A program made the position numbers and the translations under genes. Shown one piece after another: positions 1,562-25,973 of a stretch of DNA of 46,364 nt (its first letter is position 1; each line of letters starts with the position of its first letter). The DNA is from an uncultured Flavobacteriales bacterium (GTDB taxonomy: Bacteria > Bacteroidota > Bacteroidia > Flavobacteriales > Flavobacteriaceae): positions 1 through 46,364 of the forward strand of contig CAJXRD010000020.1 in NCBI GenBank assembly GCA_913058295.1, in the 5' to 3' direction. The notes beneath the pieces are model-generated. The model searched no databases. It had not been told where the DNA came from and worked only from the letters and a program-made list of their open reading frames with translations.

Positions 1562-1692
1562 GCACAACACCGTGTATAATTCATTGCTAGTACTCGCCTA
1601 CTTACGAAAATCCTCGCGGATTTTCTGTTTGGTTTTTATTTGCTAAATTAGGTGTTTAAACACGCCACTAATCATTTACAAAACCGTTATAC
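1562..1692 (+). repeat. attC-like site 1 (long class)
   Basis: R'' box GCACAAC (1562-1568), arm GTGTATAAT, apical stem GAAAATCC/GGATTTTC (1606-1625), arm TTTACAAAACC and R' GTTATAC (1686-1692). R'' (AAGCACAAC) matches the GTGCTT at the start of its own unit (base 25), not the R' it faces. Confidence 0.82.
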
Positions 1693-1700
1693 AAAATTAG

Positions 1701-2948
1701 ATGAAGATATTCTTAATTGCGATTATTTCATTAATCTTATTGACAGGATGCCGCGATGACGGAAAAGATGAAAGCCTAATTTCTTTGTCAGAAAATAGTG
1801 GATTTATTAGTAAACGACACTTACATGATAAAACATTAGACGATTCTAATTTTACAACTGAACAGCAATGGGATAGTTTACATGATATTTCTAACAAAAA
1901 AATAGTTTATAAGAAAGGGAAACTTGACGCTCAATATAAAACATTCGGTTGGCACCCTTATTACAATGGGTCTTCTTATAAAACTTATAATTTTTCAATA
2001 CTTTGGGGAGTGTCCTACTACTCATACAGTATAGAACCTAAAACGGGTAACTACAAAAGTATCCATCAATGGAAAACCACAGCGCTAATTGATAGTGCTA
2101 AAGTACATAACTGTAAAGTCTTTCTTTCTATTTCTAATTTTGGTAAAACAAACAACACTGTTTTCTTAAAAAATCTAGAAGCGCAAAACACATTGATAGA
2201 CAGTCTATCTAACCTATTGGCGTTTAGAGGTGCAAATGGCATCAATATTGATTTTGAAGGAGTCCCAAAAAATTCTAAAAAAGAATTCACAAAGTTTATT
2301 GCATTAATTTCAAAAAAACTAAAAAAAATCAACCCATCTTATATGATTTCATTATCACTTTATGCCGTTGATTGGAATAATGTTTTTGACATTAACGCTC
2401 TGGATCCGTATATAGATTTTTATACACTAATGGGCTATGATTACTATGGTAGTTTTAGTAAGACTACTGGTCCTTTAACTCCATTTACCTCCAGTGAGAA
2501 ATTTGGAAATGGGCTTATAGCATCGGTTGATCGTTATAGAAACAAAGGTGTTCATCCTAAAAAACTAATTATTGGCTTACCATATTATGGAGTAGAATGG
2601 TACACCAATAGTGATAAAATAGGAGCTGATGTCGTAAAATTTAGATCTCATCCTTCCTATAAATCAATAAGAACAATTGACATTGATTCTTTACACATCC
2701 CATTACAATTTGATACTATTAGCTCTTCCAGCTATATGATTATGAAAGATAGCAACAATACTTTTAGACAACTTTATTTTGAAGATGTAAAATCACTCTC
2801 AATTAAATATGATTGGATTAAAAAGAATAATTTTGGAGGTGTTGGAATTTGGGCTCTGGGATATGATAATGACTATTCTGAGCTATGGAATTTATTAACT
2901 GAAAAATTTTCAGAAGAACAAAATGCAACTTTGTATAACAATAAATAA
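1701..2948 (+). CDS. Glycoside hydrolase family 18 lipoprotein
   Basis: The 415-residue protein has a lipoprotein signal peptide with lipobox LLTGC (Cys17), so it is probably anchored in the envelope. The GH18 active-site strand reads GINIDFEG with the catalytic acid at Glu186 (compare DxxDxDxE), and the later MGYDYYG strand is also typical. Family members hydrolyse chitin or other N-acetylglucosamine polymers by substrate-assisted catalysis; peptidoglycan-directed members also exist, so the substrate is uncertain. The start codon lies only 7 bp after the unit's GTTATACAA start, so the gene has no room for its own promoter. Its last codons (LYNNK) are encoded by the R'' box of the following attC-like site, a hallmark of cassette genes. 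Confidence 0.85.
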   Translation: MKIFLIAIISLILLTGCRDDGKDESLISLSENSGFISKRHLHDKTLDDSNFTTEQQWDSLHDISNKKIVYKKGKLDAQYKTFGWHPYYNGSSYKTYNFSILWGVSYYSYSIEPKTGNYKSIHQWKTTALIDSAKVHNCKVFLSISNFGKTNNTVFLKNLEAQNTLIDSLSNLLAFRGANGINIDFEGVPKNSKKEFTKFIALISKKLKKINPSYMISLSLYAVDWNNVFDINALDPYIDFYTLMGYDYYGSFSKTTGPLTPFTSSEKFGNGLIASVDRYRNKGVHPKKLIIGLPYYGVEWYTNSDKIGADVVKFRSHPSYKSIRTIDIDSLHIPLQFDTISSSSYMIMKDSNNTFRQLYFEDVKSLSIKYDWIKKNNFGGVGIWALGYDNDYSELWNLLTEKFSEEQNATLYNNK

Positions 2949-2986
2949 ACACTATTAAAACAGGTGTTTATTCAAACACGTTGTCT
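2933..2986 (+). repeat. attC-like site 2 (compact class)
   Basis: This is a 54-bp palindrome: R'' GTATAAC (2933-2939), inner stem ATAAACAC/GTGTTTAT, and R' GTTGTCT (2980-2986). The extended box TTGTATAAC (2931-2939) is the exact reverse complement of GTTATACAA (1686-1694) at the start of the same unit. It overlaps the 3' end of the GH18 gene. Confidence 0.8.
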
Positions 2987-3013
2987 GTAATTGTGGAATA
3001 ATTAAATAAAATA

Positions 3014-4078
3014 ATGACAAGATTTGTAAAAAAGCAAAAACATGAAATTGGAAGACCACCTGACGAACTAATTTTTCGCGGCAGCCAAAGAATTGATAAG
3101 GTTTTGTTGAGAATTATTGACTTTGATTCGAACAATCTTAATGAAGATAATACTTCCTCTGTCAAAGACATAAGCAAATACAACAACGAAAATACAGTCA
3201 CTTGGATAAACATTGATGGTCTTCACAATTTGACCATGATGGAAGAGATAGCCTCTGCACTTAATTTTGATAAACTTACAATTGCGGAAGTCCTAAATAC
3301 AGAAGGCCGACCGAGAATTCTTGATTTTGACAATTGCACATTGATTTCTATTAAAATGTTGCGCCAAAATGATAAAACAGGAATTATTGATGTTGAAAAT
3401 TTGAGCTTAATTTTAACCAAGTCAACACTGATAACATTTCAAGAAAGGAAAGGGGATGTTTTCGAGCCTGTAAGAGAACGGATTCGAAAACAGAAAAAAA
3501 GAATTAGAAATAATGGAACTGATTATTTGACTTTCGCTCTTCTAGATATTGTGGTGGATAATTACTTATATGTAATCAGTCTATTAGGAGAAAAAATTGA
3601 AACTTTAGAAGAAAACCTTCTGCTTAACCCTAACCAAAATGTCATCAATGATATCAACAACTATAAACGTGAACTGAATTTTCTTCGCAAAAACATCAAA
3701 CCTGCTAAAGAAATGATTTTTTCTTTGGCTAAAATGGAATCAGAATTTTTTACCGAGTCTACTAGCATTCATTTTAAAGAGCTTCAAGACAACATTAGCC
3801 AAGCAAGTGATTCTTCTGACAGCTATCGTGAAATTTTATCTGATCAATTGAATATTTATCACACCACAATTAGCAGCAAATTAAATGATATAATGAAATT
3901 TTTGACTGTTTTTTCAGTCATCTTTATTCCTTTAACTTTTATTGCAGGTATATATGGAACTAACTTTGACAATGTTCCTGAGCTTCATTATGAATACAGT
4001 TATTTCATAATGTGGGGAGTTATTGTAGTTATTGCTATTCTTATGTTACTTTATTTCAGAAAGAAAAAATGGCTTTAA
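3014..4078 (+). CDS. corA: CorA-type magnesium/divalent cation transporter
   Basis: The 354-residue protein matches the usual CorA length and order: an N-terminal cytoplasmic alpha/beta domain, a long helical stalk (about residues 130-290) and two C-terminal transmembrane helices (about 293-313 and 328-347). The loop between the helices normally carries the selectivity motif GMN. Here it reads YGTNF (Gly315-Thr316-Asn317), followed by the acidic segment DNVPEL. CorA channels are homopentamers that import Mg2+ down the membrane potential. The gene starts 34 bp after the unit boundary and is the only gene in its unit. The Thr in the signature position may alter selectivity. Family assignment is secure. 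Confidence 0.93.
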   Translation: MTRFVKKQKHEIGRPPDELIFRGSQRIDKVLLRIIDFDSNNLNEDNTSSVKDISKYNNENTVTWINIDGLHNLTMMEEIASALNFDKLTIAEVLNTEGRPRILDFDNCTLISIKMLRQNDKTGIIDVENLSLILTKSTLITFQERKGDVFEPVRERIRKQKKRIRNNGTDYLTFALLDIVVDNYLYVISLLGEKIETLEENLLLNPNQNVINDINNYKRELNFLRKNIKPAKEMIFSLAKMESEFFTESTSIHFKELQDNISQASDSSDSYREILSDQLNIYHTTISSKLNDIMKFLTVFSVIFIPLTFIAGIYGTNFDNVPELHYEYSYFIMWGVIVVIAILMLLYFRKKKWL

Positions 4079-4084
4079 AACTAA

Positions 4085-4136
4085 ACACAACAATGTATAT
4101 AGCGCATTGAAACACGCCATATACTAACCGTTAAGC
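4085..4136 (+). repeat. attC-like site 3 (compact class)
   Basis: R'' ACACAAC (4085-4091), arm ATGTATAT, arm ATATACTAACC and R' GTTAAGC (4130-4136). R'' pairs with the start of its own unit (GTTGTCT at 2980) at 6 of 7 positions. Confidence 0.72.
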
Positions 4137-4165
4137 CCAAGTTAGAATAACATTATAAGAAAAAA

Positions 4166-6025
4166 ATGAAAAAGACAGACAAGCAATTGGGAATGAATAA
4201 AGGTATTGCTCGAAGAGATTTCATACAAGCAACTGTTTTGACTTCATTAGGCTTAATGCTTCCAACATCATGTGTTTTCACCTCTAACGACAATGAAGCG
4301 CCTTCAAATAATTATCCCCCTTTAAAAACGGGAATGCGTGGTTCACATGAAGGATCATATGAAACAGCACATGCTTTGGCTCGGCAAGGTATTCAATTTG
4401 ACAATCCTATTGACTCTAGTGAATATTATGACCTTATTGTTGTAGGAGCAGGTATCAGCGGCCTAACCACTGCATATGAATATCGCAAAAGGTTTGGGAT
4501 TGAATCAAAAATTCTCATTATTGATAACCATGATGATTTTGGTGGGCATGCGAAACGAAATGAGTTCAATCAATCGTCAAGTACACGCTTATCATGGGGT
4601 GGTACTATGAATTTAGAATATACCTCTTTTAGCCAATCAGTTCTTGATTTTATAGCTGAATTAGGGATTGAGATAAATGACTTGGAAAAAAAAATTGAGT
4701 TTAAATACGGAAACGACAAACCTGCAATTTGGTTTGATGCAGAAACTTATGGTAAAAACATCCTTGTTTCTGGGTTTTCTATGTATAGTAGAAATGAAGA
4801 TGCGCTCGATCAAATAGATAAATTCCCACTGAGTGAGCTGGGTATAAAAGCTTTGAAATCCTTTTATAAGAAAGACACTAATGTGCTTGAAGGTTTGTCA
4901 GAAAAAGAAATTGAAAAGGTGTTATACAAAACAAGCTACACCGATTTTTTAGAGAAGTACTGCAAACTTCCTAAAGAAGTTATTGAGATATTTATTAAAT
5001 CTACGGACGGCTATTGGGGAGTTCAGCCTCATAGTTTATCCGTAGCTGAAGCAATAAGTGCTTGGCTTCCAGGAAGTCATCGATTGGGTGAATCGGCTTC
5101 AAAAGTTGTTGGCAATGATGAGTCGGAAGAAGTAGCAATGTTTCCAGATGGTAATGCTACCATTGCTCGACTTTTGGCTTGTTCATTAATACCTGATATC
5201 TGCCCTGAAGCTAATGCGCAAACGATAGCCATGGCAAAGCTTGATTATTCAAAGCTTGACGTATCCAACAACTCTATTAACATTCGATTATCATCTACGG
5301 TGGTTAACGTCAAAAATGAGGATCATAAAGTAGCGGTAACTTATGTTCGAAAAGGAAAAACAATACGCCTACGATCCAAACATAGTGTTCTAGCTTGCTT
5401 TCATTCCATTATACCTCATATTTGCCCTGAACTCCCCTCCCATCAGAAGAAAGCGCAACAATACCAAGTAAAGCACCCCATGCTTGTGACCAACGTACTT
5501 GTTAAAAATAGTAAGGCTCTTGATAAACTAGGCATTTCTGGAGCTTACTGCCCGGGACGTATGCATGCTAAAGTATTTATGACGAAAGGGGTTAATACAG
5601 TAGGCTACCAACCTGATTACGAAAAAGATGAGGCTGTACCTCTGATGTTTTGGGGGATGATGGAACCGCCTACACGAGATGTTCATATTCACGATCAGCT
5701 TAGAGGAGCAAGAATGATACTTTTTCAAAAGAAATTCGAAGACTTTGAAAGAGAAGTAAGAACTGTGCTAGATGGTCTATTGGGGCCTGCAGGGTTTGAT
5801 GTATCTGAAGATATATTGGCAATAACGGTAAACAGGTGGTCTCACGGTTATTCTTATGGCTACCTCGACCTTTGGGATGAAAAATATAAAGCTGGGGAAG
5901 CTCCTCATGAAATAGCACGGCAACCAATCGGGAATATAAGTATTGCTAATTGTGATGCTGCTGCTTCGGCATATAGTCAGGCAGCCATAGAAGAAGCATT
6001 TAGAGCTGTAAATGAACTAAAATAA
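4166..6025 (+). CDS. FAD-dependent oxidoreductase, spermidine dehydrogenase-like, Tat-exported
   Basis: The 619-residue protein has a twin-arginine signal (RRDFIQ, Arg16-Arg17) followed by a hydrophobic run and a lipobox-like LPTSC (Cys36), suggesting export in folded form and lipid anchoring. The segment GMRGSHEGSYETAHALA precedes the Rossmann dinucleotide motif VVGAGISGL and then DDFGGHAKRNEF. This order is characteristic of the spermidine dehydrogenase (SpdH)-like flavoprotein family. SpdH cleaves spermidine to 1,3-diaminopropane and 4-aminobutyraldehyde; the substrate here is inferred from family resemblance only. It is the only gene between two attC-like sites and one of the largest single-gene units in the array. 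Confidence 0.8.
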   Translation: MKKTDKQLGMNKGIARRDFIQATVLTSLGLMLPTSCVFTSNDNEAPSNNYPPLKTGMRGSHEGSYETAHALARQGIQFDNPIDSSEYYDLIVVGAGISGLTTAYEYRKRFGIESKILIIDNHDDFGGHAKRNEFNQSSSTRLSWGGTMNLEYTSFSQSVLDFIAELGIEINDLEKKIEFKYGNDKPAIWFDAETYGKNILVSGFSMYSRNEDALDQIDKFPLSELGIKALKSFYKKDTNVLEGLSEKEIEKVLYKTSYTDFLEKYCKLPKEVIEIFIKSTDGYWGVQPHSLSVAEAISAWLPGSHRLGESASKVVGNDESEEVAMFPDGNATIARLLACSLIPDICPEANAQTIAMAKLDYSKLDVSNNSINIRLSSTVVNVKNEDHKVAVTYVRKGKTIRLRSKHSVLACFHSIIPHICPELPSHQKKAQQYQVKHPMLVTNVLVKNSKALDKLGISGAYCPGRMHAKVFMTKGVNTVGYQPDYEKDEAVPLMFWGMMEPPTRDVHIHDQLRGARMILFQKKFEDFEREVRTVLDGLLGPAGFDVSEDILAITVNRWSHGYSYGYLDLWDEKYKAGEAPHEIARQPIGNISIANCDAAASAYSQAAIEEAFRAVNELK

Positions 6026-6032
6026 AATCTGT

Positions 6033-6100
6033 ATCTAACAATGTTTATAGTGCATAGCACCCTGCGGGATACTACGACACCATACACGAACACGTTGGTT
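6033..6100 (+). repeat. attC-like site 4 (short, divergent)
   Basis: R'' ATCTAAC (6033-6039), then ATGTTTATAG, a GC-rich centre (AGCACCCTGCGGGATACT), arm CCATACACGAACAC and R' GTTGGTT (6094-6100). Match to the start of its own unit (GTTAAGC) is limited to TAAC, so this boundary is weaker. Confidence 0.6.
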
Positions 6101-6125
6101 CACTCAAACTTAAAAATGATTAACC

Positions 6126-6953
6126 ATGAAAAAAATTAAAACCATGAAAATATTTTTAATCCACTTAGTACTATTTCTAACAATACAGTTAGTAATGGGC
6201 CAAGATGCAAGCGTAGGTAGTTTAGCTATAGATGCTATAAATGGCAATCAATATGGTTGGGCAGTAGATTATAAAACTCAAACAGCATCCAAAAAACGTG
6301 CGATTGAAGAGTGTCAAAAAAACGGTGGTAATGATTGCCATACAGTACTTTGGTTTGAAGGAGGTTGTGGCGTATATGTGGTAGATTTAGACAACCCTAG
6401 TCTTTATGGTTGGGGAGTTGCCAATACTCGTGTAGAAGCAGAGAGTATTGCAATGGCAGAAGCTCGTAAAATAGGAGGCACAAACTTAAAAGTACGTGTT
6501 TGGGGTTGTAATGATGGTAATTTAATAGATTCTAATCAAAAACCAGTAAGTGCCAATTTTAAAGGAACTTATATGTTTCATTACACTACTTCTTCATCAG
6601 ATAAAAAGTTTTTTACAAGCAATTTATTATATGTACCCAATGTTGCTAAAAAAGAAAATGAAAAATGGTATTGGTCTCCAAGTGCAGAAAGCGTAATTAC
6701 CCCAAAAGCTGTAGAATTTTGGGATGCTGTAGAAGCAAATAAGTATAGTTATTTAACGAAAGAACAACGCAAAAAATTAATTACACGGAATAAAAATGTA
6801 GATTGGGTAGGTGCAAGTGAAATAGAGTATGCAAACGCAAAGATAAACCTAAATAGTTTAGAAGATCGAAAAGCTATCTTTCAGAAGTTTAAAGAAGCTC
6901 TTACAAATCAAAAAAGAGATGAGGGCTTTGAAATTATCGAAGTTATTTTATAA
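6126..6953 (+). CDS. Secreted DUF4189-domain protein
   Basis: The 275-residue protein has an N-terminal signal peptide (MKIFLIHLVLFLTIQLVMGQ, preceded by a short basic stretch). Residues of about 30-130 match the DUF4189 pattern: AIDAINGNQYGWAVDY, repeated cysteines (EECQKNGGNDCH, GGCGVYVVD), and a second YGWGVANT unit with WGCN. DUF4189 domains are small secreted disulfide-bonded modules of unknown function. The C-terminal 130 residues are charged and have no motif I recognise. It occupies its own unit; about 85 bp between its stop and the next attC-like site has no recognisable content. Periplasmic or extracellular location is inferred from the signal peptide. Confidence 0.82.
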   Translation: MKKIKTMKIFLIHLVLFLTIQLVMGQDASVGSLAIDAINGNQYGWAVDYKTQTASKKRAIEECQKNGGNDCHTVLWFEGGCGVYVVDLDNPSLYGWGVANTRVEAESIAMAEARKIGGTNLKVRVWGCNDGNLIDSNQKPVSANFKGTYMFHYTTSSSDKKFFTSNLLYVPNVAKKENEKWYWSPSAESVITPKAVEFWDAVEANKYSYLTKEQRKKLITRNKNVDWVGASEIEYANAKINLNSLEDRKAIFQKFKEALTNQKRDEGFEIIEVIL

Positions 6954-7037
6954 CAATCATTGTAGATGACTTTGTAAAACTGTGTTAAAATTAGCATAGC
7001 AGAACATAATAAACGTCACGTTTGGAATAAAAACTAC

Positions 7038-7172
7038 TGGCAACACGGTTTATAATTAATTGCTTTAGCAAGTGCTTATTTAGAAAATTCTTTCGGAATT
7101 TTCTTGCGTCCATTTTTGTTTACTAAATTAGTTGATTAAACACGCAACGAATCCATACACGAACACTTTAGC
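7038..7172 (+). repeat. attC-like site 5 (long class, degenerate R' box)
   Basis: R'' TGGCAAC (7038-7044), then ACGGTTTATAATT, apical stem AGAAAATTC/GAATTTTCT, the TTTACTAAATTAG segment shared with other long sites, and arm CCATACACGAACA. The expected GTT core reads CTTTAGC (7166-7172), so the crossover triplet may be mutated. Confidence 0.7.
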
Positions 7173-7197
7173 CTTTATTAAAAAAAATGATAATCAA

Positions 7198-8016
7198 TTG
7201 ATAAACTTATTTACATCATCAGTTATACAAGATAAAGAAGAAAAGAAAAAATATCGCTGGCAAGTCTCTATAAGCATTCTTGTTCTATTCATTATTGGTT
7301 CTTTAATAAATATTCCTTTTAGTAGAGAAGTCAAAAAGTTAAATATAGAATCAGGAAGAACTGATATTTATCTTAATGAGTCAATTATTGATGACCTAAT
7401 TAATACAGGGATTGGTAGTTTAATTTTAGGTGTAATTTTAGTTTTTATCGGTTTATGGGTTTCTTCAAGAACTAATTTGGGAGCACCCCTTATTACTCGA
7501 ATATTTTCAAAAAAATCATTTAATAAATCAGAAAGCTGGAAAGCTTTATTCTCGAGTCTCATTTTGTCATCATTTGTGGCTTTATTTTTATTGGGCCTTT
7601 TTGAGTTACAAAGTGAGTTTTATCCAATTTCAGGTATAATTTCACGACCATCCAAACCTTTTTATGCTCTTGTGGCATTCTCTGCTGGAATTAGCGAAGA
7701 AATAATGTTCCGATTAGGATTAATGTCGTTGATAATTACGGTTATTCAATTTTTGAAAAAAGCAGATAATCCGTCGAATAAAACAATCTGGATAGGCATC
7801 ATAATTTCTGCAATATTTTTTGGGCTTATTCATCTTCCGTTATCCAAAAACTTTGTAGAATTAACACCTTTTACTATCGGTGTAACGATGATTGGAAACT
7901 TAATAACAGGTTCAACATTTGGGTGGATATTTTGGAAGCGCGGATTATTGTTAGCTATTATATCACATATTGCTTTTGATTTAGTATTTCACGTAATCGG
8001 AACACCATACACTTAG
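7198..8016 (+). CDS. CPBP family intramembrane glutamic protease
   Basis: This is a polytopic membrane protein of about 272 residues with the three CPBP (Abi/CAAX protease, MEROPS M82-like) motifs: SEEIMFR (glutamates plus Arg), FFGLIHLP (FxxxH) and SHIAFDL. These residues form the catalytic site in type II CAAX proteases. Bacterial members can modify peptides or act in self-immunity, but the role here is unknown. The start is uncertain. I chose TTG at 7198; an in-frame TTG at 7132 gives a protein 22 residues longer, but those residues would be encoded by the preceding attC-like site. No in-frame ATG precedes the first transmembrane segment, so a degraded 5' end is possible. Confidence 0.82.
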   Translation: MINLFTSSVIQDKEEKKKYRWQVSISILVLFIIGSLINIPFSREVKKLNIESGRTDIYLNESIIDDLINTGIGSLILGVILVFIGLWVSSRTNLGAPLITRIFSKKSFNKSESWKALFSSLILSSFVALFLLGLFELQSEFYPISGIISRPSKPFYALVAFSAGISEEIMFRLGLMSLIITVIQFLKKADNPSNKTIWIGIIISAIFFGLIHLPLSKNFVELTPFTIGVTMIGNLITGSTFGWIFWKRGLLLAIISHIAFDLVFHVIGTPYT

Positions 8017-8027
8017 AAAATAACAAA

Positions 8028-8157
8028 GCCTAACACCGTATATATTATTTATTGCTTCTGCCTACTTACGAAAATACTTGTGGATTTTCTTGGACAGTAA
8101 TTATTTACTAAATTAGGTGCTTAACTAGGCAACTAACCATACACAAAGCCGTTGTGC
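8028..8157 (+). repeat. attC-like site 6 (long class)
   Basis: R'' GCCTAAC (8028-8034), ACCGTATATATT, apical GAAAATAC/GGATTTTC, TACTAAATTAGGTGCTTAA, arm CCATACACAAAGCC and R' GTTGTGC (8151-8157). Extended R'' AAAGCCTAAC matches the start of its own unit (TTTAGCCTTT at 7167) at 8 of 10 positions. Confidence 0.82.
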
Positions 8158-8181
8158 GTCATTATAACTAAACATTAACCA

Positions 8182-8937
8182 ATGATAAAATTTTTTAGAA
8201 AAATTAGACAAAAAATGCTGACTGAAAATAAGTTCAGTAAGTATTTAATCTATGCAATTGGAGAAATTATACTTGTCGTAATAGGAATTATGATTGCGCT
8301 TCAAATTAACAATTCGAATAATAAAAGAATAGAAAAAGACAGAGAAATTAAGTACTTAACAAATATTAAACTTGATCTTTTAAAAGATATTGAAAGTCTT
8401 GAATACAATATAGATTTTAGACAAAAAAAGACATTAGGAATTGAGAAGCTGATAAACCAAATAAATGGACAACCGATTAAGGATTTAAACGAGACAACTT
8501 TTAACGTAATAAATACTTTATACCAAGAAAGGTTTCAACCTAGTAATGTTACATACAGTGATTTAGTGAGTTCTGGAAATATGAATCTTATTTCTAACGA
8601 TTCAATAAAGATATATTTGTTCGAATTATCACTTCTCTACCAACAAAACCTGTTCAACATTGAGCACGAGACTTCGGAATATGATGAAAACATATCTAAA
8701 TCAATTTTTAGATTAGTTGATGTTGAACGTATGAAGCCAGTCTTTTTAGGGAAAAAAACTATTGAACAAGTAAATATTTCAGAAGAAGATTTCAAGGCTC
8801 TTTTTGAGAGTCTTGAATATAAAAATGGATGTGTTCTTGCGAAATGGACATCAGAAGGAATGATAGAAATGTATCAGAATATCAATAATAAATCAAAGCG
8901 TTTAATTGAATTAATTAATTCGGAACTGAAAAAATAA
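8182..8937 (+). CDS. DUF6090 family membrane-anchored protein (copy 3)
   Basis: The 251-residue protein opens with MIKFFRKIRQKMLTENK, then one transmembrane helix near residues 24-43 (YAIGEIILVVIGIMIAL) and the QINNSN variant of the NNWNE motif. The first 45 residues closely resemble the two copies near the left end of the window, while the soluble domain is only distantly similar. The translation start follows the unit boundary (GTTGTGC at 8151) by 31 bp, and the intervening sequence resembles the leader of copy 1 (GTGCTTCATTATC versus GTGCGTCATTATA). The cassettes, not only the proteins, therefore look related. Function unknown. Confidence 0.9.
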   Translation: MIKFFRKIRQKMLTENKFSKYLIYAIGEIILVVIGIMIALQINNSNNKRIEKDREIKYLTNIKLDLLKDIESLEYNIDFRQKKTLGIEKLINQINGQPIKDLNETTFNVINTLYQERFQPSNVTYSDLVSSGNMNLISNDSIKIYLFELSLLYQQNLFNIEHETSEYDENISKSIFRLVDVERMKPVFLGKKTIEQVNISEEDFKALFESLEYKNGCVLAKWTSEGMIEMYQNINNKSKRLIELINSELKK

Positions 8938-8942
8938 CGAAA

Positions 8943-9075
8943 GCACAACAATGTATAACCGCAATTACGGCGGATTCGACTAGGTCCGAAACCACTCGGA
9001 ATTACGAGCGTTCGTGCTTAACCAAAAAACAGTAACTAAAAACCCGTAACTACCGATTATATGAAACCGTTAGGT
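8943..9075 (+). repeat. attC-like site 7 (long class, different centre)
   Basis: R'' GCACAAC (8943-8949), ATGTATAA arm, an unusual centre (GATTCGACTAGGTCCGAA and GTTCGTGCTTAACC), arm TTATATGAAACC and R' GTTAGGT (9069-9075). R'' is the exact complement of GTTGTGC at the start of its own unit (8151), while it cannot pair with the GTTAGGT it faces. Confidence 0.8.
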
Positions 9076-9139
9076 GGCATTTGAAAAAAACACATTATCC
9101 CAAATAAAATCCTAATGTTGTAAATTTGAAAGAAAAAAC

Positions 9140-18642: not shown

Positions 18643-18772
18643 GTACAACAACGTGTATAATTAATACTACCTCCTACTTCAAATAAAAATCATATATTTA
18701 AACAACTGATTTGCAACGACTGAAAATCCTATGGATTCTATGTCGCATAAATCATACACGAACCCGTTGTAT
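18643..18772 (+). repeat. attC-like site 10 (long class)
   Basis: R'' within GGTACAAC (18642-18649), ACGTGTATAATTAAT arm, apical CTGAAAATCC region, arm ATCATACACGAACCC and R' GTTGTAT (18766-18772). TAGGTAC (18640-18646) is complementary to GTACCTA (17568-17574), suggesting the start of its unit lost part of a GTTGTACCTA core. Confidence 0.75.
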
Positions 18773-19547: not shown

Positions 19548-19724
19548 AACATAGGACGTTTATGGCTTATTCGAAATTTTGTACTTATTTACAGAGTCCG
19601 TTAAATATAAAATTTAGCATTTAAGCGAAAAATATAAAAGCAAAATATTTATATTTAGCTAAGAAATAAACCGAAACGATAGTGCTTATCAACTGCCCTA
19701 TGTTTCTTATACTAACCGTTGTAG
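19548..19724 (+). repeat. attC-like site 11 (divergent, weak)
   Basis: The stretch after the membrane protein gene has outer arms AACATAGG (19548-19555) and CCTATGTT (19697-19704), an internal AAATATAAA/TTTATATTT hairpin, then TTATACTAACC and a canonical R' GTTGTAG (19718-19724). The right core is convincing. The left R'' does not match its unit's GTTGTATGCC start. Confidence 0.5.
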
Positions 19725-19794
19725 CACATTATACCCAAAAACAATGAATGCCCTAAAATCTGACATTCACTATTTAAAGAATGAGGAACTATAT

Positions 19795-20883
19795 TTAATT
19801 GCTACCATGCCATTGTGCCCAATCTTTCATATTACCAAATAAGACATTCCTTCCTGAAGAACCATTGGTAAGTATTATAATACCAGATCTCGATTCAAAA
19901 TCGAGCATAAAACCAGAATGCCAACCCTCATTAGAACCTCCATGACCATGCAATGTGAAATCTCCAAAACGATTCATTTCCATATAGCCCATTCCGTAAT
20001 TGCCTCCAGATAATTCCGTGGGAGAGGTTAAAAGACCCAAACTCTTTTTAGATATTACTGGGTTTTTTGAAAAGGATGCTTTGGCAAAAAGAATTAGGTC
20101 ATCCAGCGTAGTATGCAACCCAGCTGCTGCTTGTGCATTGAAAAGACGTAAGGGGATTTCCTGTGCTTCTTCATCATAAGCATTAGCAGAGTTTTTTAAT
20201 AATTGATTGTCTAAAGTAAAGCTCGTATTTCTCATGTGCAAAGGTCTAAACACGTTTCTATCCATATAATCTGCAAAGGTTTGTCCACTTACTTCTTCAA
20301 TAACTAATTGAAGTATTGAATAACCTCCCCCAGAATATTGCCATTTGCTTTCAGGTTCCATAATAAGGGTGACTTTTTCATCTGGATTACTAGCTCCTGA
20401 TAATGATTTGCTAATTGAAGTTAAATCATTTTTAGATTCATATCCATCATAACCATGAACAGATAAACCTGCCGTGTGCTGTAATAAGTTTCTAATAGTT
20501 ACTTTATTAGAGTCAAATTCACTAGCGGGTAATTTCCAATTTGAAATATAAACTGCTGCTGGATTATCCAAGTGAATTTTTCCTTCCTCTACTAATTTCA
20601 TAATTCCCCAAGCTGTAAATGTTTTAGAGATAGAGCCTATATTAAAACCTGTATTAGTTTCAACTTTGGTTCCTTGGGCTACATTGGCAAATCCATATCC
20701 CTTTTTAATAATTACTTCGCCATCTTTAATAATAGCGATAGCCAACCCTGGAACCTTATTGGTTTGTAAAGCGTCTGGTGTGGTTGCATCTAACGTTTTT
20801 AATAATTCATTTTCAGAAGTCATTTGAGCATTAACGATACCTAATGTTAGTGCCATTGTGATAATTGTAATAATAGTTTTCAT
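19795..20883 (-). CDS. Secreted serine hydrolase, beta-lactamase/penicillin-binding-protein class C fold
   Basis: This 362-residue protein has a signal peptide (IITMALTLGIVNAQ). The nucleophile motif SxxK reads GSISKTFTAWG (about residues 82-92), a YSGGGYS loop sits where the YxN motif is expected, and HGHGGSNEGW replaces the KTG-type motif. Family members include class C beta-lactamases, D-aminopeptidases, esterases and cell-wall amidases, so resistance should not be assumed. It is one of two antisense genes in the array. It faces away from the lytS/lytR pair and shares a 230-bp intergenic region with it. A TAGGTTTG -7 box lies 25-32 bp upstream of its start (20915-20908 on the minus strand). 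Confidence 0.87.
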   Translation of the reverse strand: MKTIITIITMALTLGIVNAQMTSENELLKTLDATTPDALQTNKVPGLAIAIIKDGEVIIKKGYGFANVAQGTKVETNTGFNIGSISKTFTAWGIMKLVEEGKIHLDNPAAVYISNWKLPASEFDSNKVTIRNLLQHTAGLSVHGYDGYESKNDLTSISKSLSGASNPDEKVTLIMEPESKWQYSGGGYSILQLVIEEVSGQTFADYMDRNVFRPLHMRNTSFTLDNQLLKNSANAYDEEAQEIPLRLFNAQAAAGLHTTLDDLILFAKASFSKNPVISKKSLGLLTSPTELSGGNYGMGYMEMNRFGDFTLHGHGGSNEGWHSGFMLDFESRSGIIILTNGSSGRNVLFGNMKDWAQWHGSN

Positions 20884-20907
20884 TTTTAATTAGTTTTAAA
20901 TTCGAAG

Positions 20908-20915
20908 CAAACCTA
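20908..20915 (-). promoter_or_regulatory. Candidate -7 box of the serine hydrolase promoter
   Basis: TAGGTTTG on the minus strand fits TAnnTTTG and lies 25 bp from the ATG. The nearest upstream TTG is 25 bp away, longer than the usual 19-21, so this is a partial promoter match. Confidence 0.45.
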
Positions 20916-21113
20916 GAATTGTATTTCCACCGATTATAAACAATTTGATGAACCTAGCGTATTGCATGACATACGATTATTTGTGATATTTAAAGTACCT
21001 TTATCATCTAATTTGAATCGTTTACATTATAAAAAGAGCCATTTATAAAATAAAAGTTATCACCTTGAGTTCGCACCATAGCTTTGTGTCAAAATCATAA
21101 AAAATTAGAGAAA

Positions 21114-22064
21114 ATGACACAAAAAAAATTATTTAAATACGCTGCTATTTTATTAGGGTTCATCATTGTATTAATGGTGATTTTAAGAAACTCTCAAAGT
21201 GAGCTTTTCACAATACTTTCGGCATCACTAGGCTTAGTTATCTTTTACACACTTCTATATTACCTCTTTCAAACAGAAAAGATAAAATTTGGAGTCACCA
21301 ATCCAATCGTAAAATATCTCTTTTATGGAATTAGTATTCCGCTATTAATTTACGGAGTACAAGTAACTGCTGGAAATGATGGATTTTTTAAAAACACCGT
21401 TAGGATTCTTTTGGCTCTTGAAATTACATACTTAATTTTCTCATGGATCTATAAATACCGAAAAGGCATTCAAAAGCTTAAAAATGACAAATTGGAAGCA
21501 GAATTGATGCTTTTAAAAAATCAAATAAACCCTCATTTTTTCTTTAATACATTAAACAATTTATACTCCTTAATTAAGAAAGATGCTGATGCTGCTCAAG
21601 ATTATGTTTTAAAGCTATCAGATTTAATGCGATTCACCATTTACGATAGCGGAAAAGAAACTGTGCATTTGAAAGATGAAATTCATTATTTAATCAATTT
21701 TATTGAATTACAAACTGCTAGATACCATAAGGACATTGATGTGAATTTTGAAAAGGCTATTAAAAATTCAGAAGCTTCGGTAGCGCCTTTACTTTTTATC
21801 ATTTTATTAGAAAACGCATTTAAGCATGGTGTTGAAAAAGCAACTGAAGGTGCATTTGTGCATATAGAACTAATTGAAGACGATAGCAAAATAAGTTTCA
21901 AGGTCAAGAATAATTTCGACGAAGAAGAACCTTCAGAAAATAGTGGTATTGGACTTAAAAACCTTAAAGATCGTTTAAATATATTGTATTCAAATTCATA
22001 TCAATTATCGCATAGCATAGAGAATGGCATCTATTCAACAACTTTAGAACTTTATAAAAAATGA
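21114..22064 (+). CDS. Sensor histidine kinase, LytS/YehU (His_kinase) type
   Basis: The protein is 316 residues long from the ATG at 21114; a TTG at 21084 would add ten residues without family support. Four hydrophobic segments (residues about 8-115) form the membrane sensor. The His_kinase domain has the phospho-acceptor His141 in QINPHFFFNTLNNLYSLI, and the ATP-binding part has PLLFIILLENAFKHG and NSGIGLKNLKDRL. Known: such kinases phosphorylate LytTR-type regulators. It overlaps the regulator gene by 4 bp and probably forms a two-component system with it. TAGCTTTG at 21079-21086 may be its -7 box. Confidence 0.92.
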   Translation: MTQKKLFKYAAILLGFIIVLMVILRNSQSELFTILSASLGLVIFYTLLYYLFQTEKIKFGVTNPIVKYLFYGISIPLLIYGVQVTAGNDGFFKNTVRILLALEITYLIFSWIYKYRKGIQKLKNDKLEAELMLLKNQINPHFFFNTLNNLYSLIKKDADAAQDYVLKLSDLMRFTIYDSGKETVHLKDEIHYLINFIELQTARYHKDIDVNFEKAIKNSEASVAPLLFIILLENAFKHGVEKATEGAFVHIELIEDDSKISFKVKNNFDEEEPSENSGIGLKNLKDRLNILYSNSYQLSHSIENGIYSTTLELYKK

Positions 22065-22759
22065 TAAAATATATAATTGTAGACGATGAGTCGGCTTCGC
22101 ATGATAATATTAAAGATTATGCGAGTAACCTATCGTATCTATCCTACCAAAAAAGTTGTTACAATGCATTTGAGGCCCTTGAATATCTAAATAAACATAC
22201 AGTCGATCTTATTTTTTTAGATATCAATATGCCCAAGCTTTCTGGTTTAGACTTTTTAAAAACGCTTTCTAAAACACCAAAAATTATCATAACTACAGCA
22301 TATAAAGAATTCGCCTTAGAGGGTTATGAACTGAATATTGATGATTATTTATTAAAGCCATTTAATTTCAGTCGATTTGTAAAAGCGGTTAGTAAGGTTT
22401 ATGATTCATTAACAAATAAATCTATACCTATACAAAATTCTGAAGTTTCTGAAGACAGCAAGATTTTTATTAAAGAAGATAAAAAATATTATCAAATAAA
22501 ATTAAAGGATATTCTTTTTATTGAAGCCTATGGTAATTATGTAAAAATAAATATGATTGATAGAATAATTGTTTCACATCAATCCTTAACGTCCTTCACT
22601 CATAACTTAACAGAAAATCAATTTATTAGAGTTCACAAATCTTTTATTATTTCAATAGATAAAATTGAATTGATTGAAGGCAATAGAATACTTATTAAGC
22701 ATCATAAAATTCCAATAGGCAAAATGTATAAGCATAATGTAAATCGATTAATAAAATAA
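22061..22759 (+). CDS. LytR/AlgR-type response regulator (REC plus LytTR DNA-binding domain)
   Basis: This 232-residue protein has a receiver domain (about residues 1-118) with acidic pocket VDDESAS, phospho-acceptor Asp54 in LIFLDINMPKLSG, and the conserved Lys in DDYLLKPFNF. The LytTR domain (about 135-230) has the typical ILFIEAYGNYVKI and FIRVHKSFIIS segments. It starts inside the 3' end of the kinase gene and is its likely cognate regulator. The unit ends 14 bp after its stop. LytTR proteins bind direct repeats, and the divergent intergenic region with the serine hydrolase is the obvious candidate target. Confidence 0.93.
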   Translation: MIKYIIVDDESASHDNIKDYASNLSYLSYQKSCYNAFEALEYLNKHTVDLIFLDINMPKLSGLDFLKTLSKTPKIIITTAYKEFALEGYELNIDDYLLKPFNFSRFVKAVSKVYDSLTNKSIPIQNSEVSEDSKIFIKEDKKYYQIKLKDILFIEAYGNYVKINMIDRIIVSHQSLTSFTHNLTENQFIRVHKSFIISIDKIELIEGNRILIKHHKIPIGKMYKHNVNRLIK

Positions 22760-22776
22760 AATTATTCAAAAACGTG

Positions 22777-22907
22777 CTACAACAACGTGCATAATCAATT
22801 GCTGGTTCTGCTTATACTCAAAAAATCCTCTCGGATTTTCTATTAGGTTTTTAATTGCTAACTTTCGTGTTTAATCACGCAACTATTATTATACACAACC
22901 GTTTGCA
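22777..22907 (+). repeat. attC-like site 12 (long class)
   Basis: R'' within GTGCTACAAC (22774-22783), ACGTGCATAATCAATTGC, apical AAAATCC/GGATTTT, TTTCGTGTTTAATCACGCAAC, arm TTATACACAACC and R' GTTTGCA (22901-22907). GTGCTACAAC is the exact complement of GTTGTAGCAC (19718-19727), so the serine hydrolase and two-component genes lie in one 3-kb unit. Confidence 0.85.
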
Positions 22908-22930
22908 ACAAACAAAAAAAATCAAAACTT

Positions 22931-23593
22931 ATGAAATACAAATTTAATCGTAAAACAATATTTGAATTCCAAAATTTAATGTTCGTTTCAACCATTTTTA
23001 TTGTTCTATTATGCTTTTCTTGTAAGGAAGAATCCAACTCGTTAAAAAACTCAGAAAGTGATTTAATAACGAAAATAAATGCTGTTCAGGAGCAAGTGAT
23101 GGCACAAGGAAACATGACAGAAGTAGAGGAACAGGCTTTATTAAGTTTATGTAGCATTGTGTCGCATGATGACGGTTTAGCAACTTATACTACTGACAAT
23201 AGTATGATATTAAAAGATGTAGAAATTACCCCAGTGTATAATGGTTGTGAAGGACTCTCAATAGAAGTAACAAGAGAATGTTTTAATAATAAAGTTTCGA
23301 CATTTATTAAGCGAGAGTTTAACTTGAGTGTATCTAAAGATTTAAATCTTTCTGAACCTAAACTGGTAGAAGTTTTTTTTATAATCAACGAAAACGGAAA
23401 TTTAACTGGCATGAAAGTGAGAGATTCAGAAGTAACCGTTCAGGCAGAAATCTTAAGAGTGCTTAGAAAAATGCCTGTGATGAAACCTGCTAGCCACAAT
23501 GGTGAAAGTGTTTCTGTATTATGTTCTATCATTGTAAAATATGGAAATAATGTAGAAGTTGATGTTGTTTATATTTCTGAAAGACCCGATTAA
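22931..23593 (+). CDS. Lipoprotein with TonB C-terminal-like domain
   Basis: This 220-residue protein has a lipoprotein signal ending in CFSC (Cys31 from this start; an in-frame ATG at 22979 would give a compact 15-residue lipoprotein signal and may be the true start). The C-terminal 70 residues (VEVFFIINENGNLTGMKV ... RKMPVMKPASHNGE) resemble TonB_C domains seen in many stand-alone Bacteroidota proteins. There is no Pro-rich linker or transmembrane anchor, so it is unlikely to be a working TonB energy transducer. Six cysteines in the mature part are notable. Role unknown. Confidence 0.72.
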   Translation: MKYKFNRKTIFEFQNLMFVSTIFIVLLCFSCKEESNSLKNSESDLITKINAVQEQVMAQGNMTEVEEQALLSLCSIVSHDDGLATYTTDNSMILKDVEITPVYNGCEGLSIEVTRECFNNKVSTFIKREFNLSVSKDLNLSEPKLVEVFFIINENGNLTGMKVRDSEVTVQAEILRVLRKMPVMKPASHNGESVSVLCSIIVKYGNNVEVDVVYISERPD

Positions 23594-23624
23594 TCTTTAA
23601 TAATACTAACTAAAAAAGCCAGTT

Positions 23625-23755
23625 GCCAACAATGGCTATAAGCAATTACTTGTTCTCGCCTACTTCTGAAATTCCTCGCGAATTTTCTAGTTGGTTTTGT
23701 ATTTACTAAATTAGGTGCTTAAACACACAAAAAAACTTATACAATCACGTTGGCG
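23625..23755 (+). repeat. attC-like site 13 (long class)
   Basis: R'' within GTTGCCAAC (23623-23631), AATGGCTATAAGC arm, apical GAAATTC/GAATTTTC, TACTAAATTAGGTGCTTAA, arm CTTATACAATCAC and R' GTTGGCG (23749-23755). R'' matches the start of its own unit (GTTTGCAAC at 22901) at 8 of 9 positions. Confidence 0.85.
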
Positions 23756-23830
23756 GTAATTTGAATAAATGAATTAACTTTTATAAAATAAAACAGATAC
23801 ACTTTTACAATAAAACAAAAACATAAAACC

Positions 23831-24742
23831 ATGAGAAAAAAAATATTTCTTGCCATAGCAAGTATCATTATTCTTATTATTATCGTCTTATACATAACAA
23901 GCAGACCAACATCAACAGAAGATGGTGCATTTAGTCCATCACCATTGGCTTTAAAATTAGCAACATCATCAACAACAGATTTTGATAACACTTCTTATGA
24001 AAATAAGTACACAGGGAATAAAAAAGTGTTAATGATTTGTACAGAAGAAAGAAACATGATTATGGCTAATGGGAAAAAGTTTTCAACTGGAAACCATCCT
24101 GTAGAAATGATGCTGCCAATGTTGCATTTAAGGAATGCTGGTTTTGATATTGATATTGTAACTCCAACAGGCAAACCAGTGAAAATAGAAATGTGGGCCA
24201 TGCCAGAAGAAGATGAAGATGTAAAAGCTATTTATTCAGAATACAAACAACAATTTGAGAACCCAAAAAATCTATCAGATTTCGTTGAAAATGCAATGGA
24301 TAATAATTCTGATTATATCGCAATATATATTCCCGGAGGACATGGCGCAATGCTTGGACTTCCTAAAAACAAGGATTTAAATAAATTAATTCATTGGTCT
24401 TATGATAAAGATTTGTTTATGCTTGCCATTTGTCATGGCCCAGCAGCATTGTTAGCCGCGAATTTAGACAGTGATAAAGATTCATTCGTTTATAAAGGTT
24501 ATAAAATTGCTGCATTTCCAGATGCTGTCGATGAGCAAACACCTATGATTGGATATATGCCAGGTAAAATGCCTTGGAAATTCGGAGAGAAATTAAACAA
24601 TTTGGGAGTTACAATTATTAACCAAGAAGCCGATAATACGTGTTATGTAGACAGGAAATTAATTACTGGAGCTAGCCCTCAAGCTGCTAACGATTTTGGA
24701 AAATTAGCAGCAACTGAACTACTTAAGGATGTAAATAAATAA
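23831..24742 (+). CDS. Membrane-anchored DJ-1/PfpI family protein (Hsp31-like)
   Basis: This 303-residue protein has an N-terminal transmembrane or signal-anchor helix (FLAIASIIILIIIVLYI, residues about 5-21). The DJ-1/PfpI domain has YIPGGHGAMLGL and the nucleophile elbow LAICHGPAALL (Cys201, followed by His202). The inserted segment (VEMMLPMLHLRNAGFDIDIVTP) is typical of the Hsp31-like branch, which includes holding chaperones, glyoxalase III-type and deglycase-type enzymes. Activity cannot be decided from sequence. The periplasm-facing anchor is unusual for this normally cytosolic family. Its unit has matching 7-bp boundaries. Confidence 0.85.
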   Translation: MRKKIFLAIASIIILIIIVLYITSRPTSTEDGAFSPSPLALKLATSSTTDFDNTSYENKYTGNKKVLMICTEERNMIMANGKKFSTGNHPVEMMLPMLHLRNAGFDIDIVTPTGKPVKIEMWAMPEEDEDVKAIYSEYKQQFENPKNLSDFVENAMDNNSDYIAIYIPGGHGAMLGLPKNKDLNKLIHWSYDKDLFMLAICHGPAALLAANLDSDKDSFVYKGYKIAAFPDAVDEQTPMIGYMPGKMPWKFGEKLNNLGVTIINQEADNTCYVDRKLITGASPQAANDFGKLAATELLKDVNK

Positions 24743-24751
24743 AAAAACTAG

Positions 24752-24880
24752 CGCCAACAAAATGTATAATTAATTGCTTTCTGAATTTCCTATAGGAAAT
24801 TCACGTAATTAATTACTTTAGTGCCACGACGGAAAGCACTCATGTACTTCCCGGAACTAATCATACACACCAAGTTACTT
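24752..24880 (+). repeat. attC-like site 14 (long class)
   Basis: R'' CGCCAAC (24752-24758), AAAATGTATAATTAATTGC, apical GAATTTCC/GGAAATTC, arm ATCATACACACCAA and R' GTTACTT (24874-24880). R'' is the exact complement of GTTGGCG (23749-23755) at the start of its own unit. Confidence 0.83.
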
Positions 24881-24909
24881 GCAAGAGAAAAAAAAACCAT
24901 AAAACTAAG

Positions 24910-25887
24910 ATGAACTCATTTTTAGCAAATATTATAATTCGGACAACTCTTAAGTTCGGGGGTAAAAGAAAATATCCAAAAGGAATCCCCTCTGAATATA
25001 AGCTTGCAAAAGAATACCGGCAATCTGTTATTTCCCTGAAGCGTAATTTTAAGAATTTAATACTTATAATAATAGGAATTTTTTCTGCTTCCTTTGGTTT
25101 TAAGGGTTTTCTGTTAACAAACGATTTTATCGATGGGGGAGCTACAGGGATTTCATTACTTTTAGCTGCAATTACAGAAATCCCTCTTTACATTCTTATA
25201 ATTGGTGTAAACCTTCCATTTATATTTCTTGGATATAAAATTATGGGGAAACGCTTTGCTTTAAAGACAGCCCTGGCAATTATTGGACTTGCACTTTGTG
25301 TTGCAATCGTTCCCTTTCCAAACGTTACAGACGATGATTTACTTGTCGCAATTTTTGGTGGTTTTTTTCTTGGAGCGGGAATAGGACTTTCGATCAGAGG
25401 TGGTGCAGTAATTGACGGAACTGAAATTCTTGCAATTTATTTGAGCAGAAAACTTTCCACAACAATTGGCGATATTATAATCCTGATTAATATTATTATT
25501 TTTTCTTTCGCAGCGTATTTACTTTCTATTGAAATTGCCCTCTATTCGATGATAACTTATATCGCTGCTTCTAAAACATTGGATTTCATAATTGAGGGTA
25601 TCGAAGAATATATTGGCGTAACAATCATTTCTTCACAGAGTACCCGTATAAAAGAAATGATAATTGATAAATTGGGGCGTGGTGTGACGATTTATAAAGG
25701 CCAAGGCGGTTATGCCAAAAATGGTGTTTCAAAAGAAATGGATATTATCTACACTGTCATTACACGTTTAGAGTTAAATAAATTAAATACAGAAATCGAA
25801 AAAATTGAGCCAAATGCTTTTATTGTAATGAACAGCATAAAGGATATAAAAGGAGGTATGATAAAAAAAAGGCCCTTAAAACATTAA
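24910..25887 (+). CDS. YitT family membrane protein (DUF161 plus DUF2179)
   Basis: The 325-residue protein begins with a basic N-terminal segment. About six hydrophobic helices form two YitT_membrane (DUF161) repeats (GFKGFLLTNDFIDGGATGISLLL, and GLSIRGGAVIDGTEILAIYLS). A C-terminal DUF2179 domain (about residues 235-315, GRGVTIYKGQGGYAKNGV) follows. The family is widespread and poorly characterised; transport is inferred from topology. It stands alone in its unit, 27 bp after the GTTACTT boundary, and the boundaries match at 8 of 9 positions. Confidence 0.9.
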   Translation: MNSFLANIIIRTTLKFGGKRKYPKGIPSEYKLAKEYRQSVISLKRNFKNLILIIIGIFSASFGFKGFLLTNDFIDGGATGISLLLAAITEIPLYILIIGVNLPFIFLGYKIMGKRFALKTALAIIGLALCVAIVPFPNVTDDDLLVAIFGGFFLGAGIGLSIRGGAVIDGTEILAIYLSRKLSTTIGDIIILINIIIFSFAAYLLSIEIALYSMITYIAASKTLDFIIEGIEEYIGVTIISSQSTRIKEMIIDKLGRGVTIYKGQGGYAKNGVSKEMDIIYTVITRLELNKLNTEIEKIEPNAFIVMNSIKDIKGGMIKKRPLKH

Positions 25888-25903
25888 CGGGAGAAACGCC
25901 AGC

Positions 25904-25973
25904 AGGTAACAACGAATATAAGTAATACGGGGATTTGTTCTCAACCGAAAGGTTTGGTTATATTTGGTAACAC
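25904..25973 (+). repeat. attC-like site 15 (short, divergent)
   Basis: R'' within GCAGGTAAC (25902-25910), arm AATATAA, internal AACC/GGTTTGG hairpin, arm TTATATTTG and a degenerate right core GTAACAC (25967-25973). GCAGGTAAC matches GTTACTTGC (24874) with one difference. The 150 bp that follow (25974-26124) hold no gene I can recognise. Confidence 0.6.

Follow-up and report, generated by a model that had tools for sequence, protein, structure and literature searches.

An integron-like cassette array from a Flavobacteriaceae bacterium and its candidate recombinase without the I2 insertion

Introduction

A stretch of 46,364 nucleotides from an uncultured member of the Flavobacteriaceae, referred to below as the window (contig C20 of genome G000, 3.07 Mb in 95 contigs), holds a row of units that carry varied genes and are separated by related repeats, which raises the question of how such units came to stand in line. 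The original prediction for this DNA held that the first bases of each unit complement the 3' box of that same unit and not the box of its neighbour, as would be left by the insertion of circular units through a G^TT crossover. Taken together, the sequence evidence makes it very probable that the window belongs to an integron-like cassette array, whose units were inserted as circles by a tyrosine recombinase lacking I2, the insertion specific to integron integrases (IntI).

Pairing of Each Unit with Its Own End

The sites of the window between 1.5 and 26 kb were listed by hand, and every unit with both boxes was scored by the number of complementary positions, among the six that follow GTT, between its start (R' box) and its own end (R'' box), with 20,000 shuffles of the ends as the control. 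GTT and AAC were left out of the score because they are common to nearly all sites. Fourteen units lie between 1686 and 25910, of which 13 can be tested; the remaining one, which starts at 18766 and runs to a site whose last base is 19720, is without a recognisable 5' half, and hence stands outside the scored set. The 13 units reach a mean of 4.46 out of six, against 1.99 when shuffled, and none of the 20,000 shuffles (highest value, 3.77) attains the observed mean. The eight pairs quoted in the original prediction are all present within one base of the positions given there, each scoring five or six. That list, however, proved selective, since the five testable units omitted from it average only 3.00 against 2.05 in their shuffles (1,004 of 20,000 are as high), which is not significant on its own. 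Their scores are 4 for 2980–4091, 2 for 4130–6039, 1 for 6094–7044, 5 for 7167–8034 (a unit that opens with T instead of G), and 3 for 17555–18649. The pairing had also been said to extend often beyond the canonical 7-bp box; it does so, but this is nothing unusual, as Bouvier et al. (2009; PMC2727003) give a pairing of 9–11 nt for most gene cassettes.

Beside the other arrays, that of the window looks worn: its second to fourth sites (S2–S4) are short, the 5' half of S11 is gone, and S5 has TTT in the place of GTT.

The Same Sites in the Genome and in Relatives

Contigs C4 and C53 of the same genome carry these sites too, C70 does so weakly, and a covariance-model search of the genome gave 33 matches, adding contigs C2, C26, C31, and C83. 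The 30 units listed by hand in the window, C53, and C4 (one of them later recognised as two units) score 4.67, against 2.10 for the shuffles. The covariance model of the site, named R1, was built from 31 sites oriented on their bottom strand (alignment A2, which keeps 31 of the 38 sites used for a wobble count below, chosen by higher score and a length limit). Across 46 searched sources, R1 gave 167 matches, 160 of them distinct, with AAC and GTT ends in 148 and 149 of the 160, respectively, ends that the model also favours. Matches occur in 25 of 39 relatives and, under stricter filters, in 28 of the 149 genomes of a class-wide draw, 24 of which hold only one or two.

In the hand-listed and automated sets, only units with both boxes were counted, and in the automated set only those with gaps of up to 8 kb. 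The 128 consecutive units called automatically from R1 matches score 4.47, while the highest shuffle reaches 2.39 and the partner within the same site 2.06. One contig of a genome of the same genus (G011:C11) contributes 28 consecutive units, all of which score 5 or 6. The named loci near related integrases give 125 consecutive units with a mean of 5.66 (highest shuffle, 2.65; same site, 2.40), comprising 104 perfect units, 13 with five of six, and 8 with 4 or less. The same result is obtained from the offset profile, which, like the two larger wobble counts, the GTTRRRY count, the re-joined folds, the ORF orientation count, and the search for cassette pairs below, rests on the 150 best matches per search: when the R' box of site i is compared with the R'' box of site i+k, the score is 5.52 at k=1 (n=105), against 2.21–2.55 at k=-3 to 0 and at k=2 to 4. 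Once extended to the remaining arrays, the match of a unit with itself still exceeds both the other offsets and the shuffles, and the claim that each start complements its own end, and not the end of a neighbour, can be maintained.

This profile also bears on a rival explanation, that of plain dispersed repeats or of a transposon whose ends are complementary by chance. The sites are certainly repeats, of about 45–210 bp and present at many places, as such an explanation would have it. Their complementarity, however, exists only at the own-unit offset and reaches as far as the attI-like site described below, which leaves the explanation with a very small probability, in agreement with the original statement that plain repeats account poorly for the pattern. 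As for the genes, 142 well-matched units have an open reading frame (ORF) of at least 60 amino acids, and in 134 of them the longest ORF points the same way as the site.

Fold of the Site and Strand Asymmetry

Beyond the boxes, the sites hold two arms, L' and L'', which pair over 16 positions in a bottom-strand hairpin with an unpaired central spacer. In the alignment of the 31 sites, 91.7% of 581 cells are paired, and 33 cells show changes on both sides of the pair, compared with 11.3 in shuffles. When the top strand was folded for 13 sites, no convincing structure emerged (z from -2.7 to 0.5); it is the bottom strand that is relevant.

The arm positions that depart from Watson–Crick pairing are mostly G.T wobbles on the bottom strand, equivalent to A.C mismatches on the top strand. 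Under a scoring that is neutral between strands, the ratio of bottom to top wobbles is 184:11 in 38 sites, 577:8 in 126, and 695:11 in 148, and each site of the three sets leans to the bottom strand (38/38, 126/126, and 148/148). Two of these G.T pairs are almost invariant (28/31 and 29/31 sites), and a third is found at position 11, outside the box, where bottom wobbles make up 60 of the 85 mismatches. Extrahelical bases of the R''-L'' arm, as judged by eye in the 31 aligned sites, are absent as a conserved feature: an extra base is seen in 11 sites, where it belongs to the L' arm, and 20 have none (one of them gapped across the region); in one site the L'' arm is longer by an insertion of 2 bases. 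From these sequences, the polarity of the site appears to be written as fixed G.T wobbles and not as extrahelical bases on the R''-L'' arm.

Re-joining the two ends of the same unit strengthens the fold. In 103 such cases, the mean energy is -27.3 kcal/mol for the bottom strand and -23.5 for the top strand, against -22.6 for the array form of the site on the bottom strand; the re-joined bottom strand beats the top one in 101 of the 103 cases and the array form in 91.

Generic searches do not recover these sites. Rfam gave no match at gathering scores, and a plain search for RYYYAAC returned 68 matches against 97 in shuffles, failing because the boxes depart from the canonical consensus; only 9 of the 119 R' boxes with GTT fit GTTRRRY. 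Canonical arrays beside IntI in two genomes (G218 and G208) were examined as a wobble control, but the two stretches scanned, out of four, revealed no distinct attC repeats, and the sole canonical attC measured (aadA1, in the plasmid locus L145) has one bottom wobble, no top wobble, and three gaps, too few to serve as a control.

The asymmetry of the strands is relevant to a second explanation, in which an integrase without I2 acts on duplex sites, as Xer does at dif, the hairpin being either a cruciform or of no importance to the reaction. Such a double-strand system would suit an enzyme that lacks I2 and whose nearest solved relatives, by both sequence and fold, are Xer and XerA enzymes (see below). 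Nevertheless, all measured sites lean to the bottom strand and their arms co-vary, and exchange between duplexes would be expected to need like cores, whereas the boxes of neighbouring sites differ freely. A duplex mechanism is thus regarded as unlikely.

The Candidate Recombinase P0001

The recombinase that is likely to serve the arrays of this genome, as far as its sequence and position indicate, is P0001, a tyrosine recombinase of 398 residues encoded on the minus strand of contig C53 (L002:14884–16080). Its gene lies just upstream of the first site of C53 and shares the orientation of the sites in this sister array. P0001 holds the complete catalytic set (R, K, H, R, H, Y), each position of which is kept in 121 of 122 aligned recombinases.

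P0001 falls short of the integron-integrase profile TIGR02249 (192.3 bits, cut-off 265), which it matches in two stretches that skip profile positions 178–240, and also of the XerA profile NF040815 (208.3 bits, cut-off 220). Among solved structures, an archaeal-type Xer protein and XerA (PDB 4a8e and 5hxy) come closest to it by sequence, followed by the Vibrio integron integrase, and its nearest by fold are Xer/XerA-type enzymes. The alignment with the Vibrio integrase omits residues 180–247 of the latter chain, where P0001 has 25 residues. In the alignment of 122 recombinases, the KDRV and HxLRH motifs are separated by a patch of 94 residues in 12 of the 13 canonical IntI rows, the remaining row being the atypical plasmid variant described below, but by 52 residues in P0001 and by 51–60 in each of the 107 rows outside IntI and XerC/XerD. 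The IntI-specific I2 insertion is, in consequence, absent from P0001. In a quick tree without bootstrap, computed from 69 of the 122 rows after removal of the I2 columns, canonical IntI proteins form one separate branch (Shimodaira–Hasegawa-like approximate likelihood ratio test, 100), and P0001 falls within a 31-row set of enzymes without I2 (support 99).

P0001 also carries an extra N-terminal domain of approximately 80 residues (modelled over 83 residues with AlphaFold2, with a mean predicted local distance difference test score of 83). In Foldseek, the first match of this domain is the HARP domain of SMARCAL1 (E 0.033, probability 0.84), with XPB entries among the following ones, a weak resemblance in which no match lies below E 0.001; the Pfam HARP family matches 2 of 33 members, with a best E of only 0.13. 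HARP- and XPB-type domains bind branched DNA.

Two other proteins were set aside. The IntI1 variant of plasmid locus L145, with 57 residues instead of 94 in the KDRV-HxLRH patch, is atypical and should not be taken for a natural integron without I2. A 376-residue recombinase of the genome of the window, related to P0001 (L010, on contig C74; 228 bits with NF040815) was dropped as the cognate enzyme, as R1 finds no site on that contig.

Linkage to the Arrays and an attI-like Site

A scan with P0001 gave 243 relatives, from which 80 loci were retained, mostly labelled as Flavobacteriaceae or its genera, but including one labelled Bacteroidales (L118) and one labelled Chlorobiota (L122). R1 gave 177 matches in these loci, all 177 in the orientation of the integrase, and only two of the 176 placed matches (the cut-off match of L090 being left out) lie upstream of it. 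Sites are present in 50 loci, again without the partial match of L090, and their presence follows the length of DNA available downstream of the integrase gene: 1 of 23 loci with less than 600 bases (L125, where the site is upstream), 4 of 8 with 600–1,500 bases, and 45 of the 49 where 1.5 kb or more is available.

The R'' box of the first site in each locus was then compared with GTT partners from 150 bases before the end of the integrase gene to 400 bases after it, or to 60 bases before the site. A perfect partner, resembling an attI site, is found in 38 of 49 loci, whereas exchange of the R'' boxes between loci gives a mean of 1.3. In the 40 loci that score five or six, the partner lies 26–43 bases past the stop codon in 30 and 115–378 bases past it in the other ten, and in 35 of the 40 it is preceded, at exactly two bases before GTT, by ATATAAC, a motif that was not used in the search. 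The motif ATATAACnnGTT (ATATAACnn^GTT) occurs between -150 and +450 of the stop codon in 64 of the 80 loci, against a single occurrence in 571,304 bases of upstream control sequence. In the genome of the window, the attI-like motif is ATATAACAAGTTGTGCTTAA, at L002:14856, which matches the box of the first site over 10 bases.

This linkage also bears on whether another enzyme built the arrays. An ordinary integron, assembled by a canonical IntI with I2 that was later lost or is missing from the assembly, with P0001 as a bystander, would explain the own-unit pairing, the bottom-strand hairpin, and the AAC and GTT ends, all of which are canonical attC features; moreover, among 247 genomes from the phylum, 70 encode canonical IntI proteins above the cut-off of NCBI (National Center for Biotechnology Information), including a class-mate with a site match (G179). 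However, this cut-off is passed in none of the 39 relatives, the genome of the window included, and one genome consisting of a single contig and stated to be 100% complete (G171) holds 16 site matches and a P0001-type gene with no IntI match at E 1e-40. Furthermore, in 45 of the 49 long-enough loci (which were collected with P0001) the linked, co-oriented gene is of the type without I2, and the poor fit of the R' boxes to GTTRRRY is not that of canonical sites. A lost or unassembled canonical integrase is consequently very unlikely. Even less likely is that the folded sites are used by the host XerC/XerD pair and not by P0001. Genes resembling both are present (L005 and L004), and the use of a single-stranded hairpin by Xer proteins has been described for the CTX phage (PMC7790495), but this reading leaves unexplained why an attI motif and an array directly follow the P0001-type gene.

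Proposed Mechanism and Points That Weigh against It

According to the reading preferred here, that of circle-inserted cassettes and a recombinase without I2, each unit is, or was, a circle bearing one attC-like site. The bottom strand of this site would fold so that the R'' box of the unit (...AAC, cassette end) pairs with its own R' box (GTT..., cassette start) over about 9–12 bp, followed by a spacer of three versus six unpaired nucleotides and an L stem of about 16 bp. The tyrosine recombinase, probably P0001, would cut the folded strand at G^TT and join it to the double-stranded attI (ATATAACnn^GTT) near the end of its own gene. Because the circle would be opened at G^TT, the R' box stays with the start of its cassette in the linear array, and the R'' box with its end. 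The wobble pairs and the N-terminal domain may together stand in for the extrahelical bases and I2. Insertion of circular units through a G^TT crossover, as originally proposed, is supported at the level of sequence by the pairing at a single offset, by the attI-like partner ending at G^TT, and by the co-varying bottom-strand hairpins.

A further, more tentative proposal, to which slightly less than an even chance is assigned, is that these arrays represent a second kind of integron, whose Xer-like recombinase never held I2, in which strand and polarity are read from the fixed G.T wobbles and the fold is recognised by the HARP-like N-terminal domain, either by convergence or as a state that preceded I2.

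Several observations weigh against the mechanism. The case is built from sequence, from which circles and recombination products are deduced, and the integrase and the window array lie on different contigs. The own-end match is poor in several units of the window (U2–U4 and U9), and 42 of the 128 automated units score 4 or less; G019:C13 accounts for 11 of these, the window for 6, and G011:C22 and G023:C13 for 5 each, the others being scattered. The sites are homologous, so their wobble counts are not independent events, and the same applies to the loci, which were collected by using P0001. No site is seen in four of the loci that extend 1.5 kb or more past the integrase gene, 16 of 80 lack the attI motif, and a perfect attI partner is missing for 11 of the 49 first cassettes. 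The large array of G019:C13 (L051, 52000–67000) has at its upstream end a 284-residue recombinase of another clade, which is divergent from the array and thus makes this locus an exception to the rule of co-orientation. In addition, the class-mate G179, with one site match, has a canonical IntI on another contig. Finally, the 168 units compared include no more than one pair of homologous cassettes from different genomes, and cassette exchange thus lacks direct support.

Units and Sites of the Window

All sites and units of the window are on the plus strand, and the hairpins are modelled on the bottom strand. The array opens with the attC-like site S1 (1566–1688; AAC to GTT, 112.2 bits with R1), whose R' box GTTATACAA begins cassette U1 (1686–2939; own-end score 6/6), encoding a glycoside hydrolase family 18 protein. 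The following three sites are short: S2 (2937–2982), placed by hand and without an R1 match, S3 (4089–4132; 36.6 bits), and S4 (6037–6096; 36.1 bits). They are followed, respectively, by U2 with a CorA-like transporter (2980–4091; 4/6), U3 with a FAD/NAD-binding protein (4130–6039; a poor 2/6), and U4 with a DUF4189 protein (6094–7044; 1/6). S5 (7042–7169; 91.0 bits), with TTT as its 3' box, leads into U5, with an Rce1-like CAAX protease family protein (7167–8034; 5/6), and S6 (8032–8153; 93.9 bits) into U6, with a DUF6090 protein (8151–8949; 5/6). This last protein, alone in its unit at 8182–8937, has two paralogues in the window, encoded side by side at the start of the contig (53–799 and 756–1556). 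S7 (8947–9071; 52.6 bits) and U7, with a CNNM/CBS protein (9069–10213; 6/6, in a run of 10), come next.

Between S8 (10211–10335; 65.3 bits) and S9 (17442–17557; 67.4 bits) lies the large unit U8 (10333–17444; 5/6), in which an apparently complete his operon (hisG-D-C-B-H-A-F-IE) stands as a single array unit, together with a leader region. By eye, the latter holds a leader-like ORF from 10408 with many histidine codons and, near 10501, a hairpin that resembles a terminator. At E 1e-40, two of the 18 searched genomes of the genus have a HisG match, one of the two being the genome of the window; many of the 18 are incomplete. Another genome (G014) holds a his copy homologous over positions 10372–17430 of the window, nearly all of U8, with no site within the surrounding 19 kb (best E 0.14), which is suggestive of either a chromosomal operon turned into a cassette or a cassette that became fixed at another place. 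A 74-base segment of the last his gene (hisIE region) is exactly duplicated in the window, at 16934–17007 and, beyond the array, at 27246–27319.

U9 (17555–18649; 3/6), with no Pfam family, is closed by S10 (18647–18768; 65.6 bits). S11 (19600–19720, its start being guessed) keeps only its 3' end, CTAACCGTT, and has no R1 match. U11 (19718–22783; 6/6, in a run of 10) encodes a beta-lactamase-superfamily protein on the minus strand, and a histidine kinase and a LytTR regulator on the plus strand. The array continues with S12 (22781–22903; 91.0 bits), U12 without a Pfam family (22901–23630; 5/6), S13 (23628–23751; 85.9 bits), U13 with a DJ-1/PfpI family protein (23749–24758; 5/6), S14 (24756–24876; 68.9 bits), and U14 with a YitT-like membrane protein (24874–25910; 5/6). 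By inspection of the sequence, S15 (25908–25935) consists of a 5' half (R'' GCAGGTAAC), and its 3' half was not found there. One more site, S16 (30246–30368; 68.7 bits), lies outside the range of the original prediction.

Other observations concern the sister array and the ends of the window. On the minus strand of L002 (C53), two neighbouring units of 658 bases are near-identical (4160–3503 and 3381–2724); they start with GTAGCAC where their end predicts GTTGTAGCAC, which is three bases longer, possibly owing to a shifted joint or a deletion. The window also holds a long minus-strand ORF at 44568–46307, with internal repeats at spacings of 198 and 114 bases. Positions 1–24 resemble what we take to be a Nextera transposase adapter, and the first bases of the contig are therefore probably an assembly artefact.

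Comparison with Known Systems

Own-unit pairing and its extension to 9–11 nt already belong to textbook knowledge of integrons (PMC2727003), and the apparent novelty is the integrase without I2. The IntI-specific domain has been considered a defining characteristic (PMC9668308), and I2 has been called necessary and exclusive (PMC7790495). An integron-like array served by an integrase without I2 was not found in the open-licence literature of PubMed Central, a search that leaves bioRxiv and most subscription papers outside. IntegronFinder requires a match to the IntI-specific domain in its integrase search (PMC9668308), so this search would be expected to miss a P0001-type enzyme; the text of IntegronFinder 2.0 (PMC9024848) names one complete integron in Bacteroidetes proper, that of Salinibacter ruber M1. 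A system without I2 across many Flavobacteriaceae genomes would add a group in which surveys found few integrons. As I2 is reported to be necessary for cassette capture, it would also make the claim of Escudero et al. directly testable and provide the missing comparison.

Xer/XerA-type recombinases, the closest solved relatives of P0001, are likewise without I2; to our knowledge, Xer enzymes do not run cassette arrays. Spirochaete IntI proteins carry I2. A likeness to Spirochaete integrons, by description only, lies in an integrase orientation that is also unlike that of most integrons, the typical IntI of Spirochaetota being mostly in reverse orientation (PMC9668308). Also by description only, P0001 can be likened to the 'integron-like' recombinase subgroup of Smyshlyaev et al. 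2021 (PMC8138268), whose insertion-less members are given, in the part of that paper at hand, without arrays, attI, or function.

With integrons, the system shares the cassette array, one site per cassette, the pairing of R'' and R' boxes from the two ends of the same cassette, the AAC/GTT core, the bottom-strand hairpin with its unpaired spacer, the attI beside the integrase, and genes mostly co-oriented with the sites. In comparison with the attC sites of Bouvier et al., the conserved extrahelical base is not seen, and the 11 of 31 sites with an extra base (by eye) have it on the opposite arm, L'. Unlike integrons, the integrase lacks I2, bears an extra N-terminal domain, and is co-oriented with its array, the boxes rarely fit GTTRRRY, and the L arms hold fixed G.T wobbles. 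To judge from its sequences, then, this system is integron-like in its working, yet its enzyme fails a defining test of IntI.

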